From Halorussus rarus (GTDB taxonomy: Archaea; Halobacteriota; Halobacteria; Halobacteriales; Haladaptataceae), in NCBI RefSeq assembly GCF_003369835.1, contig NZ_QPMJ01000004.1:186001-250000 (forward strand): a stretch of 64,000 nucleotides of DNA. The letters are read 5' to 3'. How positions within the stretch are numbered: the stretch's first letter is position 1; each line of letters opens with the position of its first letter. Made by a program: the position numbers and the translations under genes. Of this stretch, positions 12,123-23,886 are shown piece after piece. Below the pieces are notes generated by a model. It was not told the origin of the DNA. It worked only from the letters and a program-made list of their open reading frames with translations, and ran no database searches.

Positions 12123-12142
12123 TTTCGACGCCCGAACCAGAA
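12123..12142 (+). promoter_or_regulatory. Shared 20-nt upstream element, copy 1
   Basis: TTTCGACGCCCGAACCAGAA ends exactly 34 nt before the ATG of the DyP-like gene. The identical 20 bases occur at 16565-16584, also 34 nt before the ATG of the P19-like lipoprotein gene. It contains TTCG-N5-CGAA, a small inverted repeat, and sits just upstream of where the TATA element should be. I read it as a shared regulator site or BRE-overlapping element. Confidence 0.6.
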
Positions 12143-12175
12143 CCCCCTTTCGGGTCCCGTCCTTAGGGCCGGGCG

Positions 12176-13561
12176 ATGGACGACACCGGACCGAGCGAAC
12201 ACGGACGAAGCGGGGCCGACCGCGACGCCCGGCCGCGCGGCGAGTCGGCGGACGCCGCCCGAGACGGCGCCGACCGGGACCGCCGGAGCCGCGGCATCTC
12301 CAGGCGGGAGTTCGCCAAGGCCGCGGTGGCCATCGGGGGCGCCTCGGCGCTGTCGGCGTGTCTGGGCCGGAACGGCGGGCCGGACGTGGCCACCGGGCCC
12401 GAGGACCTCTCGACGCTGCCCTCGCGCCAGCACGCGTGGAACGAGTTCCTCCCGACCGACGACCACGGCAACGTCGTCGCGCCCCGCCACCGGGTCCTCC
12501 TCCTGTTGAACTACGCCGGCGACGGGACGCCGACCGACGCCGACCGCGAGACCGCCGAGTCGGCGTTCCGGAGCCTCGAGCGCGCCTACGAGCGGGGCGG
12601 CGACGGCCTGCTGTTCACGGTAGGCTACTCGCCGTCGTACTTCGAGCGGTTCGACGCGCCGCTGCCCGACTCCGTGGACCTCCAGCAGCCCCGGGCGCTC
12701 GCCCCGTTCGAGGACCCGGAACTCGACCGCCAGGACGCGGTGGTCCACCTCGCAAGCAACCACGCGTCGGTCGTGCTGGCGGCCGAGCAGGCGCTGCTCG
12801 GCGAGCAGTCGACGGTGAACGGCGTCGAGGTGACGGCCGACCTCTCGGGGGTGTTCGAGCGGGCCGACCGCCGGACCGGGTTCATCGGCGAGGGGCTGCC
12901 CGCCGACCACCAGGACGTCGACGGCCTCCCCGACTCCGACGCGGTGCCCGAGGACGCGCCGCTCTACATGGGGTTCAAGTCGGGCTTTCGGAAGAACCAG
13001 GCCAGCGAGGACCGCGTGACCATCCGGGACGGGCCGTTCGCCGGCGGGACGACCCACCAGCTCTCGACGATCGAGCTCAACTTGGAGCAGTGGTACGAGC
13101 AGGACAGCCGGTCACAGCGCGTGAGCAAGATGTTCTGCCCGGTCCACGCCGAGGAGGACCTGGTCGAGGACGCGGGCGACAACCTCGGCGACTCCGCCAG
13201 GATGGAGGAGAAGGGCTGTCCCGCCCACTCGGAGGAGCACGCCCGCAAGAAGGGCGTGGTGGGCCACTCCCAGAAGTCGGCGCGGGCCCGCGACGACGAC
13301 GGCTCGCCGCTGATGATCCGCCGGGACTTCGACTCGACCGACGGCGGCCGGGCGGGCCTCCACTTCGTCTCGCTCCAGCGGACCGTCGCGGACTTCGTCG
13401 ACACCCGCGACGCGATGAACGGCGAGGACCTCGCCGAGCGGTCGGCGGTCGGGCAGAAGAACAACAACGGCATCCTCCAGTACATGGAGGTGCTCCGGCG
13501 CGGGAACTTCCTGCTGCCGCCCCGGGAGCACCGCGCGCTGCCGACGCCGAATCCGGCGTGA
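12176..13561 (+). CDS. DyP-type peroxidase-like Tat lipoprotein
   Basis: 461 aa. A basic, charged leader carries a twin-arginine motif (ISRREFAK, 41-48), a hydrophobic stretch and a lipobox LSAC (59-62), so it should be exported folded and lipid-anchored. The rest resembles the dye-decolourising peroxidase/EfeB fold: MGFKSG at 265-270 takes the place of the GxxDG motif, GHSQKSARARD (363-373) matches the proximal haem-histidine region, and MIRRDFDST (380-388) plus AGLHFVSLQRTVADFV match the C-terminal end. The distal catalytic Asp appears replaced by Ser269. Two CPxHxEE motifs (321-327, 348-354) are an extra feature that could bind metal. EfeB-type proteins work in iron uptake; here that role is inference, supported by the shared upstream element with the P19-like gene. 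Confidence 0.75.
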   Translation: MDDTGPSEHGRSGADRDARPRGESADAARDGADRDRRSRGISRREFAKAAVAIGGASALSACLGRNGGPDVATGPEDLSTLPSRQHAWNEFLPTDDHGNVVAPRHRVLLLLNYAGDGTPTDADRETAESAFRSLERAYERGGDGLLFTVGYSPSYFERFDAPLPDSVDLQQPRALAPFEDPELDRQDAVVHLASNHASVVLAAEQALLGEQSTVNGVEVTADLSGVFERADRRTGFIGEGLPADHQDVDGLPDSDAVPEDAPLYMGFKSGFRKNQASEDRVTIRDGPFAGGTTHQLSTIELNLEQWYEQDSRSQRVSKMFCPVHAEEDLVEDAGDNLGDSARMEEKGCPAHSEEHARKKGVVGHSQKSARARDDDGSPLMIRRDFDSTDGGRAGLHFVSLQRTVADFVDTRDAMNGEDLAERSAVGQKNNNGILQYMEVLRRGNFLLPPREHRALPTPNPA

Positions 13562-13682
13562 CGGCCCGATCCTTCCGACCCGCCGCCACTCCGGCTCGCC
13601 GCCGACCTGACCCGTGCGAGGAGTAGCCGAAGATATCGCCGCACCGCGAACCTCTTTGTAGGCCGACCTCCCACGTTCCGGC

Positions 13683-14414
13683 ATGCGCAGAGTCAGATTC
13701 CGCGACCCCGCGGGCAGCACCAGAGTCGGCGAGTGGACCGACGGCCGGATCGAGGCGGCCGGCGAGACCTACGACGCGGCCGACGTCGCGGTGCTTCCGC
13801 CGGCCGAACCGACCAAGATCGTCTGCGTCGGGTTGAACTACCGGGACCACGCCGACGAGCGCGACAGCGAGATCCCCGACCGGCCGCTGCTGTTCCTCAA
13901 GCCCCCGAACAGCCTCTCGGCCCACGGCGACACCGTGACCCTCCCCGCCGGGAAGGAGCGCGTCGACCACGAGGCCGAACTCGCGGTCGTGATGAGCGAC
14001 CAGGCACGTAACGTCTCCGCCGACGAGGCGATGGACTACGTCGCGGGCTTCACCTGCATGGACGACGTGTCGAACCGCGACGACCAGGACCGCGAGCAGA
14101 ACTGGGTCCGCGGGAAGGCGTTCGACAACGCCGCGCCGCTCGGGCCGGTGCTGGCCACCCCCGACGAGGTCCCCGACGACGCCGCGGTCGAACTCCGCGT
14201 GAACGGCGAGACCCGCCAGCGGTCCTCGCGCGACGAGTTCATCTGGTCGGTGCCCGAGCTGATCGAGGAGGTGACGACCTACATGACCCTCGAACCGGGC
14301 GACGTCGTCTCGACCGGGACGCCCGCGGGCGTCGCGCCGCTCGACGACGGCGACGAAGTCGAGGTCGAGGTGGAGGGCGTCGGCGTCCTCCGCCACGACG
14401 TGCGCGAGCCCTGA
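13683..14414 (+). CDS. Fumarylacetoacetate hydrolase (FAH) family protein
   Basis: 243 aa, ATG 13683. Metal-dependent hydrolase/decarboxylase fold acting on 2-keto or diketo acids in the cytoplasm. Conserved blocks: GLNYRDHADE (50-59), the metal triad VDHEAELAVV with E97 and E99, and the third ligand D128 in FTCMDDVSNRD, then VSTGTPAGV near the C-terminus. It lacks the longer N-terminal region of true FAH and is closest in layout to acylpyruvase/2-hydroxyhepta-diene-dioate isomerase types. A paralogue of 280 aa sits in the catabolic island at 27402-28244. No operon partner: flanked by the DyP-like gene upstream and a convergent histidine kinase. Substrate not assignable. Confidence 0.9.
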   Translation: MRRVRFRDPAGSTRVGEWTDGRIEAAGETYDAADVAVLPPAEPTKIVCVGLNYRDHADERDSEIPDRPLLFLKPPNSLSAHGDTVTLPAGKERVDHEAELAVVMSDQARNVSADEAMDYVAGFTCMDDVSNRDDQDREQNWVRGKAFDNAAPLGPVLATPDEVPDDAAVELRVNGETRQRSSRDEFIWSVPELIEEVTTYMTLEPGDVVSTGTPAGVAPLDDGDEVEVEVEGVGVLRHDVREP

Positions 14415-14417
14415 CGC

Positions 14418-16178
14418 TCAGCGCGGGTTCGCCGCGCGGTCGTCGCGGGAGGGGCGGAGCGACCGCCCGCCGACGTCGGTGGCGATGGGGAGTTCGACGG
14501 CGACGACCGTGCCTCGGGGGTCGTTGTCCGCCACCCGGACGTCGCCGTCGAAACCGGAGACGATTCTGTCGACCAGGTAGAGGCCGATGCCCGTGCCGGG
14601 GCTCTCGAGACCCTTCTCTCCCCTGCCGAACACCGTCTCCTTCCGGTCGTCCGGTATCCCCGGGCCGTCGTCCGCGATCCGGACGACCGCCGTCTCCTCG
14701 GTCACGGCGAGCGAGACGTCGACCTCGGGGGCGTCGGTGTCGTTGTGGATCACGGCGTTCGTGATGACGTTCAGCAGCGCCGACCCCAGCAGGTCGTTCG
14801 CGCGTATCCGCACGTCCGGCAGGTCGGGCGGTACCGCGACGCTCGCCTCGGGGTACGCCTGCCGGACCTGCTCGGCCGTCTCCTCGAGCTCCCGACACAG
14901 ATTCATCGGCCGCATCTCGTCGTCTTCCAGCATCACGCGCATCAGGTCGGCGACGGTGTCGGTCAACTCGTCGATGTGCTCGGCGTACTCGAGTGCGGTC
15001 CGGAGTTCGTCCACGACCTCTTCTCCGAGGTCGTCGCGATCGAGCGCGAGTCTGAGGTACAACGTGACGACGCTGACGTCGTTGGTGACGTCGTGGCGGA
15101 CGACCCGATTGAGTATCTCGAGCTGGTCGTTCGTTGCCTCCAGTTCGCGCTGGTAGGTGCGCTGCGAGGTCACGTCGTGGGCGGTGAGTACCCACCCGAC
15201 GGTCGCACCGCCGCGCCGGAGCGGCCGGCGGAACACGTCGAGGTACCGCTCGCGGTCCGGGCCGGCCCGGACCGTCGCCGACTCCAGGCCGTCGCGGAGC
15301 GCGTCGTACTCCGGGATGGCGTCCGCCGCGTCGTCCCCGACCGCCGAGCCGAGTCCGAACAGCGACTCGGCGGCCGGGTTGCGGTAGACGATGCGCTCGT
15401 CCTCTTCGAGGACGACGATACCGGTCGGGGAGTGCTCGACCGTCGTCCGGTAGGCCAGCGGGAGCGCGCCGAACAGCTTGTACCGGAACACCGCGACCCC
15501 GAACGAGACCGCGGTGAAGGCCAGCGACGCCGGAAGCAGGTTGACCCCGACCCCGTCCGGGGGATAGACGTCGGCGAGTTCGAGGTAGACGACGACGGCG
15601 GGGGGCACGACGCCGACCAGGAGGAAGCCGGCCTGTTTCCGGTCGTCCCACCGCGACCGGACCGCGTACTGGAGGATGAGCCCGATCGCGAACAGGTCGA
15701 GGACGAGACCGTACGCGATCCGGAGCACCGACGCCGGCCCGGACTGGACCTCGATAGTGGTCACGCCGCCGCTCGCGACGAGTCGCCAGTCGATGATGGC
15801 GACGGAATTGGGGTTGACGAACAGGAGCAGCAGGGTCACCGACGGCACCGCGAAGAGGGCGGCCAGCGTCGGGCGGGTCAGCCACTCGCTGCGGTCGGTG
15901 TAGGCGAGCGCGAACGCGAAGAACAGCGGACTCGCGAACGTGCTCCCGACGTGGAACAGCTTGAACGCGAGCAGCTTGACGGCCGGGTCGAGGCTCAGAA
16001 CCTTGACCGCCGTGACGATAGTCCACACCGCGATGGCGAGGTTCAGCCCCACGAACGAGAGCACGACCGTCCGCCGGCGACGCCTGCGGGCGTACGCCGC
16101 ACCGTAGGCCGCCAGGACGGCCGAGACGAACCCGCCGATCAGCATCGGGTAGACGTGTGCGGTGTGTTGCCAATCCAT
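14418..16178 (-). CDS. Membrane histidine kinase with 7TM sensor, PAS and HATPase domains
   Basis: 586 aa from ATG 16178. The first about 225 residues hold seven hydrophobic helices of the HisKA_7TM type (MDWQHTAHVYPMLIGGFVSA...). A PAS domain follows (YRTTVEHSPTGIVVLEEDERIVYRNPAAESLFGL), then a phospho-acceptor helix NRVVRHDVTNDVSVV with the H-box histidine, N-box LLNVITNAVIHND, and G-boxes IADDGPGIP and GTGIGLYLVDRIV. The family autophosphorylates and signals to response regulators, but none is nearby. It ends 3 bp from the convergent FAH gene. A TATA box and a palindrome lie directly before the start codon, suggesting regulated leaderless transcription. Confidence 0.9.
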   Translation of the reverse strand: MDWQHTAHVYPMLIGGFVSAVLAAYGAAYARRRRRRTVVLSFVGLNLAIAVWTIVTAVKVLSLDPAVKLLAFKLFHVGSTFASPLFFAFALAYTDRSEWLTRPTLAALFAVPSVTLLLLFVNPNSVAIIDWRLVASGGVTTIEVQSGPASVLRIAYGLVLDLFAIGLILQYAVRSRWDDRKQAGFLLVGVVPPAVVVYLELADVYPPDGVGVNLLPASLAFTAVSFGVAVFRYKLFGALPLAYRTTVEHSPTGIVVLEEDERIVYRNPAAESLFGLGSAVGDDAADAIPEYDALRDGLESATVRAGPDRERYLDVFRRPLRRGGATVGWVLTAHDVTSQRTYQRELEATNDQLEILNRVVRHDVTNDVSVVTLYLRLALDRDDLGEEVVDELRTALEYAEHIDELTDTVADLMRVMLEDDEMRPMNLCRELEETAEQVRQAYPEASVAVPPDLPDVRIRANDLLGSALLNVITNAVIHNDTDAPEVDVSLAVTEETAVVRIADDGPGIPDDRKETVFGRGEKGLESPGTGIGLYLVDRIVSGFDGDVRVADNDPRGTVVAVELPIATDVGGRSLRPSRDDRAANPR

Positions 16179-16183
16179 CAGGC

Positions 16184-16200
16184 GCGTACTCGCAGTACGC
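16184..16200. promoter_or_regulatory. Perfect palindrome between TATA box and kinase start
   Basis: GCGTACT-CGC-AGTACGC, seven-base perfect arms with a three-base centre, lying 6-22 nt upstream of the histidine kinase ATG. That is between its TATA-like box (16203-16212) and the predicted leaderless start. A dimeric repressor bound here would block initiation. Confidence 0.55.
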
Positions 16201-16202
16201 CA

Positions 16203-16212
16203 CCAAAAAACC
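16203..16212 (-). promoter_or_regulatory. TATA-like box of 7TM histidine kinase
   Basis: Minus strand GGGTTTTTTG; centre about 29 nt before ATG 16178. Confidence 0.4.
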
Positions 16213-16295
16213 CCGTCATAGTCACCCTGATTCGACCTCGACCCCACTGGCCGCGAGCGAGGGTGTTTTCCCGACGGGGCCCGTCGAGTCGGACG

Positions 16296-16529
16296 ATGAC
16301 CGACGAGCGCGCGACGGTGACCTGCCCCGACTGCGACCTCGAGGAGACGTTCGACCGGCTCGGGGCGGCCCGGTCCCGCATCGAGACCCACCGGACCGAG
16401 ACCGGCCACGAGGCGGTCTGGAAACTCCACCGGCTCGATTCGGGCGTCGAGCGCGCCGGCGACGAGGCCGGCGTCTGCGGGCGGCCGGAGTGCACGAACG
16501 AGGAGTCGCCGCTCTACCGGGGCGAGTAG
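16296..16529 (+). CDS. Small zinc-finger-like haloarchaeal protein
   Basis: 77 aa, divergent from the kinase. Two Cys pairs, CPDC at 10-13 and CGRPEC at 61-66, with histidines at 32 and 39, suggest a small zinc-binding fold; the first half (TCPDCDLEETFDRLGAARSRIETHRTETGHEAVW) resembles a C2H2-like knuckle. This kind of short protein is widespread in haloarchaea (I recall it as a DUF7542-type family, unverified). It lies 88 bp before the P19-like lipoprotein gene on the same strand, so cotranscription is possible, though the latter has its own upstream element. Confidence 0.8.
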   Translation: MTDERATVTCPDCDLEETFDRLGAARSRIETHRTETGHEAVWKLHRLDSGVERAGDEAGVCGRPECTNEESPLYRGE

Positions 16530-16564
16530 TCCGGGCGCGATTCGCCCATCGTCTCGGACGCGCT

Positions 16565-16584
16565 TTTCGACGCCCGAACCAGAA
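16565..16584 (+). promoter_or_regulatory. Shared 20-nt upstream element, copy 2
   Basis: Identical to 12123-12142 and at the same 34-nt distance from the following ATG (16618). The bases around the two copies differ, so this is a conserved element and not simply a recent duplication of the whole upstream region. Confidence 0.6.
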
Positions 16585-16617
16585 TCCGTATTCGTACGAC
16601 GCGGCTAGAGCCACCCG

Positions 16618-17676
16618 ATGAGACGACGCGACTTCCTGCGGGCGGGCGCGCCGGTCGGCCTCGCCGGCCTCGCCGGGTGCACGGGGCTGCTCGATACCCA
16701 GTCGGCCGCCTCCGGGCAGTTCACCACGGTCGCCGACCGGACGGAGCAGGTGTACTACCCCACCCACGTCGACGGGATGGAGATGGTCGGGATGGGCGGG
16801 AAGGGGCGCTACAAGGTCGGGCTGATGTACAGCACGCCTCACGCGTTCTGGAACATCACCGGCACGGACACGAACCTCGCGCAGGTCGGCGAGAGCGTGA
16901 GCGCCCACCTGATGGCCATCCTCTGGGACGACCAGACCCGGACCGTGCTGCCGACCGCCAACGTCTCCGCGACCCTCCTGAAGGGCGGCGAGGAGGTCGA
17001 TTCGCGGCGCCTCTGGCCGATGCTCTCCCAGAACATGGGCTACCACTTCGGCGACAACGTGGAGCTGTCGGGCGACGGGACCTACACCGCCGAGCTCTCC
17101 ATCGGGGCGATGCAGGCCCGCCCGATGGGCGCGCTGCGGGGCGCGTTCGGCGAGCAGACCGAGCTGGCGGTCGAGTTCGACCACAGCCGCTCGAAGCTCG
17201 GCGACGTCTCCTACGAGCCGCTCCCAGACAAGAAGGGGAAGCCGGGCGCGATTTCGCCGATGGACATGCAGATGCCAGTCTCGCAGGTGCCCGAGCGGAG
17301 CGACCTGCCGAACGTGCTCGGGACCGGGACCAGCGGCGACGCCGACTTCGTGGCGTTCGCGCCCGACGAGAACCCCCACTTCGTCGCCGACGGCAAGCGG
17401 TACCTCGCGGTGTCGCCCCGGACGCCGTACAACCGCTACCCGCTGCCGTTCATGTCGCTGTCGGCGACGCTGAAGCGGGGCGGCTCGACCGTCTACGACG
17501 ACATCCTCCGGCCCGCGCTCGACCCCGACCTCGGTTACCACTACGGCGCCGCGGTCGACGGCGTGCAGTCGGGCGACTCGCTGACGGTAACGGTGGGCGC
17601 GCCGCCGCAGGTCGCCCGCCACGAGGGGTACGAGACGGCGTTCATCGAGATGCCCGCGATGGAGATGACGGTCTGA
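16618..17676 (+). CDS. P19/Tp34-like iron-trafficking Tat lipoprotein, two repeats
   Basis: 352 aa. Twin-arginine leader MRRRDF and lipobox LAGC (18-21) predict export and lipid anchoring. The mature part looks like two tandem copies of the P19-type metal-binding beta-sandwich. Repeat 1 has ATLLKGGEEV (118-127), LWPMLSQNMGYHFGDNVEL (132-150) and GTYTAELSI; repeat 2 has ATLKRGGSTV (283-292), ILRPALDPDLGYHYGAAVDG (296-315) and SLTVTVGAPP. In known P19 proteins the Met/His positions in this block bind Cu and Fe outside the membrane. MGYH (140-143) and LGYH (305-308) keep the His in both repeats, Met-rich stretches occur at 54-59, 215-219 and 345-350. Family assignment is by motif memory. The shared 20-nt element ties it to the DyP-like gene. 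Confidence 0.75.
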   Translation: MRRRDFLRAGAPVGLAGLAGCTGLLDTQSAASGQFTTVADRTEQVYYPTHVDGMEMVGMGGKGRYKVGLMYSTPHAFWNITGTDTNLAQVGESVSAHLMAILWDDQTRTVLPTANVSATLLKGGEEVDSRRLWPMLSQNMGYHFGDNVELSGDGTYTAELSIGAMQARPMGALRGAFGEQTELAVEFDHSRSKLGDVSYEPLPDKKGKPGAISPMDMQMPVSQVPERSDLPNVLGTGTSGDADFVAFAPDENPHFVADGKRYLAVSPRTPYNRYPLPFMSLSATLKRGGSTVYDDILRPALDPDLGYHYGAAVDGVQSGDSLTVTVGAPPQVARHEGYETAFIEMPAMEMTV

Positions 17677-18828: not shown

Positions 18829-18882
18829 GTCCGGAGATTGGGAGGCCGAAACGGTAGCCCTGCTGCCGCGCATCCGCGGTGG

Positions 18883-18890
18883 TTTTAAGC
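18883..18890 (+). promoter_or_regulatory. TATA box of HTH-10 regulator (leaderless)
   Basis: TTTTAAGC, about 26 nt before ATG 18912, confirming that start over an upstream in-frame start at 18879. Confidence 0.55.
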
Positions 18891-18911
18891 GCTCCCGTCG
18901 AACCGCCGCGC

Positions 18912-19565
18912 ATGCGCTACGTCACCGTCGTCGCGCGACCGATCGACGGGGCGCTCCACCCGCTCGACCGCGCGCTCGGGGACGAACCGGCGGTCTCGCG
19001 CGAGGCGATCCACCGCGCGGAGCTGCTCGACGACGACACAATCGTGATGTTCGCGGAGGCGACCGGCGACGCCGACCGGCTCCGCGAAATCCTGGCCGAC
19101 AGCGACCACGTCCTGGACTTCACGGTCACCGCCGACGACGAGGGGCGGCTCTACTCCTACAGCCACTACGACCCCAACGACACGCTCCGGGACCTGCTGC
19201 TCCGGCGGCGCGAGCAGGAGCTGGTCGTCCGGATGCCGGTCGAGTACACCGACGACGGCGCGATGCGCGCGACCTACGTTGGCCGCGACGAGGCGTTCCG
19301 GGCGGCGATGGCCGACCAGCCCGAGGCGGTCGAGATTGAGATCGAGTCGACCGGCGACTACCACCCGAAGGCCGAGGACCTGTTCGCCCGGTTGACCGCC
19401 CGCCAGCAGGAGGTGCTGAAGGCCGCGGTCAGGCTGGGCTACTACGAGAACCCACGGGAGGCGACCCACGAGGACGTCGCCGAGGCGGTCGGCCTCTCGT
19501 CGGGGACGGTCGGCGAGCACCTCCGGAAGGTGGAGTCGGCGGTGCTGAAGCGGCTCGTGCTCTGA
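18912..19565 (+). CDS. HTH-10 family (bacterio-opsin activator-type) transcription regulator
   Basis: 217 aa. The N-terminal about 150 residues form an alpha/beta sensor-like domain (MRYVTVVARPIDGALHPLDRAL ... LYSYSHYDPNDTLRDLLL). The C-terminal segment LTARQQEVLKAAVRLGYYENPREATHEDVAEAVGLSSGTVGEHLRKVE is the HTH-10 helix-turn-helix found in Bat-like haloarchaeal regulators. Leaderless promoter at 18883-18890. It is divergent from the solitary nuoH (83 bp between starts), so it is a plausible regulator of that gene, but this is only positional. Confidence 0.9.
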   Translation: MRYVTVVARPIDGALHPLDRALGDEPAVSREAIHRAELLDDDTIVMFAEATGDADRLREILADSDHVLDFTVTADDEGRLYSYSHYDPNDTLRDLLLRRREQELVVRMPVEYTDDGAMRATYVGRDEAFRAAMADQPEAVEIEIESTGDYHPKAEDLFARLTARQQEVLKAAVRLGYYENPREATHEDVAEAVGLSSGTVGEHLRKVESAVLKRLVL

Positions 19566-22890: not shown

Positions 22891-23886
22891 TTACGCCGCC
22901 ACCGAACCGCTCTCGGAGGCCTCGAGCAGCTCGTGGTAGCGGTTCCGGATGGTGACCTCGCTGACCTGCGCGACGTCGCTGACCTCGGCCTGCGTGACCT
23001 TCTCGTTGGTCAGCAGCGGGCCGGCGTAGACCGCGGCGGCCGCGAGGCCGACCGGCGACTTCCCGCTGTGGATGCCTTGGCGCTTGGCGTTCCGGAGCAG
23101 TTCACGGGCCCGGCGCTCGGACTCGTCGGAGATGCCCAGTTCGCTGGCGAACCGCGCGACGTAGTCCTCGGGGTCGGCCGGCTGGATCTGGAGGCTGAGC
23201 TCCCGGACGATGTAGCGGTACGTCCGCTTGAACTCCATCTCGTCGATGCGGCTGACGTTGGCGACCTCGTCGATCGACCGGGGCGTCCCGGTCTGGCGGG
23301 CCGCGGCGTACAGCGACGCGGTGGCGACGCCCTCGATGGAGCGGCCCGGGAGGAGGTCCTCGTCGAGCGCCCGCCGGTAGATGACCGACGCGGTCTCGCG
23401 CACGTCCTCGGGAAGGCCGAGTGCGGAGGCCATGCGGTCGATCTCGCCGAGGGCCTGCTTGAGATTGCGCTCCTTGGAGTCGCGGGTGCGGAACCGCTCG
23501 TTCCACTTGCGGAGCCGCTGCATCTTCTGGCGCTGGCGACTGCCGAGCGACTTGCCGTAGGCGTCCTTGTTCTGCCAGCCGATGTTGGTCGACAGCCCCT
23601 TGTCGTGCATCATCTTGGTCGTCGGGGCGCCGACCCGGCTCTTCTGGTCCTTCTCGCTGGCGTCGAACGCGCGCCACTCCGGCCCGCGGTCGACGTTGTC
23701 CTCGTCGATGACGAGACCGCAGTCGCTGCAGACGGTCTCGCCGTGCTCCTCGTCGGAGGTGACCCGCCCGCCGCACTCGGGGCAGATCTGCTCGTCCTCG
23801 CGCTCGCTCGCCGGCCGCTCGTCCTCGTCCGTTCGCTCTGTTACGTCGGTCTGTTCGTCGTAGCTCTGGATTCGTGTACTCGTCAT
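22891..23886 (-). CDS. tfb: Transcription initiation factor IIB (TFB)
   Basis: 331 aa. Archaeal TFIIB homologue that binds the TBP-TATA complex and recruits RNA polymerase. N-terminal acidic tail, zinc ribbon CPEC...CSDC (Cys 35, 38, 53, 56), B-reader/linker region GPEWRAFDASEKDQKSRVGAPTT, then two cyclin-like repeats (about 130-220 and 225-320) ending in a helix-turn-helix TQAEVSDVAQVSEVTIRNRYHELLEA that reads the BRE. Haloarchaea carry several TFBs, so which paralogue this is cannot be told. A TATA box (TTATTTAGG, 23926-23933) lies about 43 nt upstream, giving a leader of about 16 nt. Confidence 0.96.
   Translation of the reverse strand: MTSTRIQSYDEQTDVTERTDEDERPASEREDEQICPECGGRVTSDEEHGETVCSDCGLVIDEDNVDRGPEWRAFDASEKDQKSRVGAPTTKMMHDKGLSTNIGWQNKDAYGKSLGSRQRQKMQRLRKWNERFRTRDSKERNLKQALGEIDRMASALGLPEDVRETASVIYRRALDEDLLPGRSIEGVATASLYAAARQTGTPRSIDEVANVSRIDEMEFKRTYRYIVRELSLQIQPADPEDYVARFASELGISDESERRARELLRNAKRQGIHSGKSPVGLAAAAVYAGPLLTNEKVTQAEVSDVAQVSEVTIRNRYHELLEASESGSVAA

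Follow-up and report, generated by a model that had tools for sequence, protein, structure and literature searches.

Haloarchaea have promoter-proximal activator sites such as the bop UAS of Bat, the gas-vesicle UAS of GvpE, and the sites of TrmB. The element described here resembles them in being short, in lying upstream of or overlapping the BRE, and in keeping a fixed distance to the TATA box of a gene with a short leader or none, but it differs from them in sequence, in the family of its candidate regulator, and in the genes it precedes; moreover, it is asymmetric and present in separate copies at divergent promoters. A denitrification motif of Haloferax mediterranei, CGAAYATDKTYG, is also a haloarchaeal promoter motif of exported copper/redox proteins; it was defined by comparison, is common to these proteins, and has no regulator assigned in its source (PMC11218638). 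Its sequence is different from that of our element, and no DyP or P19 targets were seen among those named for it.

Outside the Archaea, an operon of Streptomyces (sco-ecuc-SLI_4212-dtpA) encodes Sco and ECuC together with a putative Cu transporter and the DyP DtpA (PMC4736821). Like the regulon proposed here, it places a Tat-exported DyP under common control with Sco and has a link to copper delivery. Yet it is a single bacterial operon, whereas here separate leaderless promoters carry one cis-element and P19 replaces ECuC.

The pair of genes that bear the element is also reminiscent of FtrABCD, which has a P19 relative, and of EfeUOB, which has a DyP (EfeB). Unlike in those systems, SCO1 and NosL genes bear the same element as DyP and P19, and an FTR1 permease gene was not recognised among the conserved neighbours of the pair. 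The candidate regulator, finally, is like ArsR/SmtB proteins in that its second winged helix matches HTH_metalloreg above the cut-off, its first being Pfam HTH_HVO_0163_N. It departs from them by having two wHTH domains per chain and no cysteine, and by a putative site that looks promoter-proximal and asymmetric rather than a palindromic operator.

An element repeated before two lipoprotein genes

The window, i.e., the whole stretch of DNA analysed, comprises 64,000 nt of Halorussus rarus (contig NZ_QPMJ01000004.1, positions 186,001-250,000, forward strand). The features that matter for the argument are these, the last one lying outside the window:

12123..12142, + strand: copy A of the regulatory element (TTTCGACGCCCGAACCAGAA), spanning -53 to -34 relative to the DyP-like ATG
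12148..12150, + strand: TATA-like TTT at -28 to -26 relative to the ATG, promoter of the DyP-like gene (57-site matrix; leaderless fit)
12176..13561, + strand: Tat lipoprotein of 461 aa, DUF7405, DyP-peroxidase fold (Pfam 1.6e-167; AlphaFold model against the PDB)
14418-16178, - strand: 7TM-PAS histidine kinase gene, between the DyP-like and P19-like genes
16565..16584, + strand: copy B of the regulatory element, the same 20 bases as A, spanning -53 to -34 relative to the P19-like ATG
16589..16592, + strand: TATA-like TATT at -29 to -26 relative to the ATG, promoter of the P19-like gene (57-site matrix)
16618..17676, + strand: P19-like Tat lipoprotein (Iron_transport and DUF7350), 352 aa (Pfam)
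18879..19565, + strand: HTH_10 / HVO_0513_N regulator gene, beside the P19-like gene
22891..23886, - strand: TFB (transcription factor B) gene, near the pair in 9/21 neighbourhoods
G000:C4:183454-183960: HTH_HVO_0163_N double winged-helix gene (P0001), 2 kb upstream of the window and 14 kb upstream of DyP

The 20-mer is present in two exact copies, where the first-pass annotation had placed them. When up to three mismatches are allowed, these remain the only two in the window (shuffle mean 0.02) and in the whole genome of 4,372,177 bases (reversed control 0); the genome-wide search that had been proposed thus found no copies scattered at random positions. Both start codons (12176 and 16618) lie 34 positions past the last base of the 20-mer. 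The annotation was right about the equal distance, but its 34 nt are positions, and the intervening nucleotides number 33. These starts are plausible, since each N-terminus has a twin-arginine motif and a lipobox. The surrounding bases differ, as had also been noticed: 18/67 positions are identical upstream and 16/33 downstream, the latter figure being raised by promoter features that the two genes share. The chance of an identity run of 20 bases at one register is ~1e-9. The full 20/20 identity is nevertheless partly lineage chance; in other Halorussus, the DyP and P19 copies are mostly not identical, with one to three differences in the spacer.

The protein families guessed from the letters stood up to closer analysis. 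The P19-like protein matches Pfam PF10634 (Iron_transport) at 32.1 bits, above the gathering score of 21, and its weak matches in the PDB are solely to FtrA, a P19 relative (E 0.05). The DUF7405 protein has no sequence match to solved structures; its AlphaFold model (pLDDT 76.6, with a disordered N-terminal tail) compared by Foldseek with the PDB gave 50 DyPs among the 50 matches listed (best E 8e-16, TMt 0.71). DyPs carry a GxxDG motif with the catalytic Asp. At its likely place, by sequence, this protein has GFKSG (266-270), where Ser269 is nearly invariant, and the catalytic Asp thus appears to be replaced by Ser. His364 and Arg382 are invariant in the family and 18 residues apart, a spacing that we take to be that of DypB, with His364 presumably proximal and Arg382 distal. 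The DyP and P19 genes are neighbours in many haloarchaea, and in Halorussus they usually have other genes between them. The genome studied here also has another pair of DyP/P19-like genes, with P19 preceding DyP (L108, G000:C1:1567500-1573000), and no copy of the element was found at this pair (C1:1,570 kb).

Consensus and promoter geometry

The upstream regions of orthologues carry the same element in the same place, and a consensus and position weight matrix were built from 57 distinct sites in relatives (Halorussus being the same genus, Haladaptatus and Halomicrococcus the same family). The conserved element reads TTTCGA-N5-G-N-ACCAGAA, with a TATA box 4-5 nt downstream, and the start codon always comes 30-35 nt after the element. 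Across the 57 sites, TTTCGA is fixed, the spacer prefers CG[CG], and then come G, a variable base, and a fixed ACCAGA; A20 is present in 86%, followed by YCC, and the TATA box (TTTT or TATT) occupies positions 25-28 of the matrix, with W at 26 in all sites and T at 27 in 98%. Since the sites were picked by 13 core positions, only the freely varying positions constitute independent evidence. The palindrome initially taken as the core, TTCG-N5-CGAA, is kept in just 20/57 sites; what is conserved instead is TTTCGA and ACCAGA(A). Judging from this set of sites, the conserved element is asymmetric and directional, and not that palindrome.

The way in which copies are arranged at neighbouring promoters is in line with this asymmetry. 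Where regulon genes are divergent, there are two back-to-back copies, each at its own fixed distance (L173 6535/6536; L278 5143/5155; L309 695/698; L415 4731/4734), which, together with the asymmetry of the site, argues against a single shared palindromic operator. Where DyP and P19 are adjacent and codirectional, as in Haladaptatus and Halomicrococcus, each gene has an element and a promoter to itself. The BRE position coincides with the 3' end of the element, and the TATA box lies -29 to -26 from the ATG. In Haloferax volcanii, 72% of the protein-coding transcripts are leaderless, and the TATA box and BRE have been given as 'TTWT' and 'CGAAA' (PMC4983044). The geometry of the element and TATA box fits leaderless haloarchaeal promoters with predicted start sites at the start codons, and this geometry accounts for the equal distance at both genes.

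Breadth and membership of the regulon

The same element precedes DyP/P19 orthologues at the same promoter position in many lineages, which bears out both the conserved control site and the link between the two genes that had been proposed. In 28 genomes of the family, the core pattern with 0 mismatches marks essentially the starts of DyP and P19, plus one small Cys/His-rich secreted peptide. When the core and TATA pattern was searched in 293 genomes of the order, there were 66 exact sites in 41 genomes and 0 for the reversed pattern, a soft control because it does not preserve CpG content. All but one of these sites (65/66, counting those inside the family and those read outside it) precede DyP or P19. 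A scan of ~85,000 prokaryote species gave 38/38 haloarchaeal sites at 31-35 nt before DyP or P19 genes (the last 12 loci being assigned by encoded protein), in Haladaptatus, Halorussus, Halomicrococcus, Haloglomus, Halorarius, Halococcus, Halomarina, Haloarcula, Halolamina, Halostella, and uncultured lines; the matches outside haloarchaea were scattered. By all comparative criteria, the element is real, conserved, and regulatory. A literature search, which covered few subscription papers, did not find the element or the regulon described; this is apparently a new regulon.

Small secreted peptides rich in Cys and His (CxGLHxAD...CHxGE; L101, L102) are orthologous in two Halorussus, have the element upstream, and are possibly metal-binding.

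Wider membership was sought by allowing one mismatch or by using the matrix, always with the correct gene spacing. SCO1 and NosL are copper chaperones. Among the SCO1/SenC lipoprotein homologues of the family, 11/13 have a site with at most one mismatch and a gap of 31-33 nt. Weaker copies with correct spacing precede genes for NosL, a plastocyanin-type cupredoxin, HiPIP, DsbD_2, and His-rich lipoproteins, targets that are predicted to be mostly exported copper/redox proteins; the added members include a Tat protein from Haladaptatus whose tail is His-rich. Calling the linked families iron-related, as the first-pass annotation did, was justified for P19 and DyP and too narrow for a regulon with these further members. 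Near the regulator gene, the element also precedes, at 31-32 nt, genes for Tat lipoproteins that have a His-rich stretch at the N-terminus and a body that looks repeat-like (L412 4919, L418 3136).

In the genome of H. rarus itself, SCO1 was not found. The element is rare elsewhere in this genome, and a wider scan (three mismatches) gave 66 matches, with just two spacing-correct plausible additions. The better one is a 469-aa polytopic membrane protein (G000:C1; score 18.8 vs 40 for the true sites), whose family is also found beside DyP in Haladaptatus, Halomicrococcus, and G053. The other is a Tat lipoprotein (G000:C2:898475, L483) with CCTCGAAAGACGAACCAGAA at 32 nt before its ATG; its score of 12.3 makes it a weak candidate, because the best window match with gene spacing that is not a true site scores 11.9.

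A double winged-helix candidate regulator

The clustering of 21 neighbourhoods produced three transcription-factor candidates: a double winged-helix protein, a TFB, and an HTH_10 protein. The best candidate is most likely the first, for which the case from gene linkage is strong but unproven. The copy of H. rarus, 88% identical to a homologue in the genus, has Pfam domains HTH_HVO_0163_N (first) and HTH_20, and its second winged helix is above the cut-off for NCBIfam HTH_metalloreg. The predicted fold (pLDDT 87.6) consists of a pair of winged helices plus a C-terminal helix, and its matches include metalloregulators of the ArsR/SmtB type (CzrA, SmtB, CadC) and the related SqrR. The protein has conserved histidines and no cysteine, so that the classical thiol metal site is absent.

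The gene adjoins DyP (G046, G038, G053), P19 (G029, G033), SCO1 (G031, G058, G001, G003, G036), and NosL (G020, G046, G036), spread over many lineages, and its neighbours mostly carry the element. Two of the 11 members of the cluster (Haladaptatus G020 and G023) are a different, membrane-anchored wHTH, and the linkage therefore rests on the other nine and on further neighbourhood searches. Among 59 relatives, the element-positive genomes have a strong regulator homologue (E 1e-40 or better). Three genomes with DyP/P19 and no regulator homologue have no element, two of the three being incomplete. A co-occurrence table compiled by hand (27/0/7/3; Fisher p 0.015) is confounded by phylogeny, includes incomplete genomes, and carries little weight. 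Seven genomes encode the regulator but have no element at the promoters of their DyP/P19 genes; it precedes another gene near the regulator in two of these (G031, G058) and, as a weaker case, in G055, and in the remaining four none was found. The DyP/P19 pair of Haladaptatus is far from the regulator gene, and no element was found in the regulator's own promoter. In Haloferax, HVO_0163 increases under hypochlorite (PMC10294847); our literature search found no description of its function. The DtxR/Idr-type regulators first put forward for this site give way to the double winged-helix protein as the linked factor. Taken together, comparison establishes the element, its position, directionality, and breadth, the regulon's membership by sequence, and the linkage of the regulator gene.

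Discussion

We consider it probable that the double winged-helix regulator binds the 20-mer and that it likely activates a regulon of exported copper/redox proteins. The 20-mer would serve a dedicated one-component regulator as its site, immediately 5' of the BRE in leaderless promoters and overlapping it. Two unlike wHTH domains would read two unlike half-sites, TTTCGA and ACCAGAA, whose centres are about one helical turn apart. Unlike recognition helices reading unlike half-sites beside the BRE would explain the asymmetry, the directionality, and the fixed spacing. The regulator may thereby switch on a small regulon: here the DyP-like and P19-like lipoproteins, elsewhere SCO1, NosL, cupredoxin, HiPIP, and DsbD_2, Tat-exported targets that would supply or use copper/redox metals outside the cell. 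Binding, sign, and signal are what we infer from these patterns. Activation is favoured, since the element lies immediately before the BRE and the TATA boxes are weak, and repression through blocked TFB is possible, with a substantial minority chance. The signal may be copper, iron, or oxidative/redox stress. The membership of SCO1, NosL, and cupredoxin argues for copper, for which the Streptomyces Sco-DtpA operon (PMC4736821) is a precedent; the 13-fold increase of the haloarchaeal NosL HVO_A0549 under iron starvation in Haloferax volcanii (PMC11349517) argues for iron.

Haloarchaea carry several TFBs, and the element could be an extended BRE read by a dedicated paralogue, e.g., the product of the 22891-23886 gene. 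We rank this second and think it rather unlikely. The directionality of the element, its fixed spacing to the TATA box, and its overlap with the BRE position would all fit, as would the presence of a TFB gene near the pair in 9/21 neighbourhoods. In Halorussus, Haladaptatus, and Halomicrococcus, a TFB gene stays close to the P19-like gene. However, outside the family it is near the pair in just 1/9 neighbourhoods, it was not seen at the element-bearing loci of G046 and G053, and in the loci searched it was not found beside SCO1 or NosL, where the wHTH gene was found; the element also extends to -53, past a BRE. The assignment to the wHTH protein rests on gene linkage, and some regulator-positive genomes have no element near the regulator gene, so the element might define a regulon and be bound by some other factor. 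This is unlikely, given that a single regulator family is repeatedly linked to several different element-bearing genes.

An iron regulon under a DtxR/Idr/SirR-family repressor that binds the TTCG-N5-CGAA palindrome would suit the iron-linked P19 and DyP families and the response of NosL to iron starvation, but we regard it as very unlikely: the palindrome is not conserved, divergent promoters have two copies where one shared operator would be expected, and the conserved neighbours included no recognisable DtxR-type gene. Still less probable is the HTH_10 (HVO_0513-type) protein, which adjoins P19 in H. rarus and some other Halorussus but is near the pair in this genus only (4/21 neighbourhoods), whereas the element is order-wide. 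The identity of all 20 bases, weakly constrained spacer included, might also suggest that promoter DNA was copied recently, by duplication or gene conversion, without regulatory meaning. The flanks differ, both sites are kept in numerous genera, and within one genome the two usually have different spacers; conservation across families contradicts this explanation, which is almost certainly wrong.

Returning to the double winged-helix regulator, we advance only tentatively, and with some doubt, a larger proposal: an order-wide archaeal regulon for extracytoplasmic copper supply, governed by a cysteine-free, tandem winged-helix, one-component sensor through an asymmetric, directional element fused to the BRE, of which each leaderless promoter, including those of divergent pairs, would need its own oriented copy.

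Haloarchaeal regulators with a known site, regulon, and signal are few. The gain here is threefold: the element is sharply defined, the exported metalloproteins to which it points (DUF7405, DUF7350) form a short list, and a single candidate regulator can be named. The proposed circuit is testable in culturable haloarchaea. The metalloproteins on the list defined by the element are mostly without known function, and the tie of an archaeal DyP-fold protein and P19 to copper handling by SCO1 and NosL suggests functions for two DUF families.
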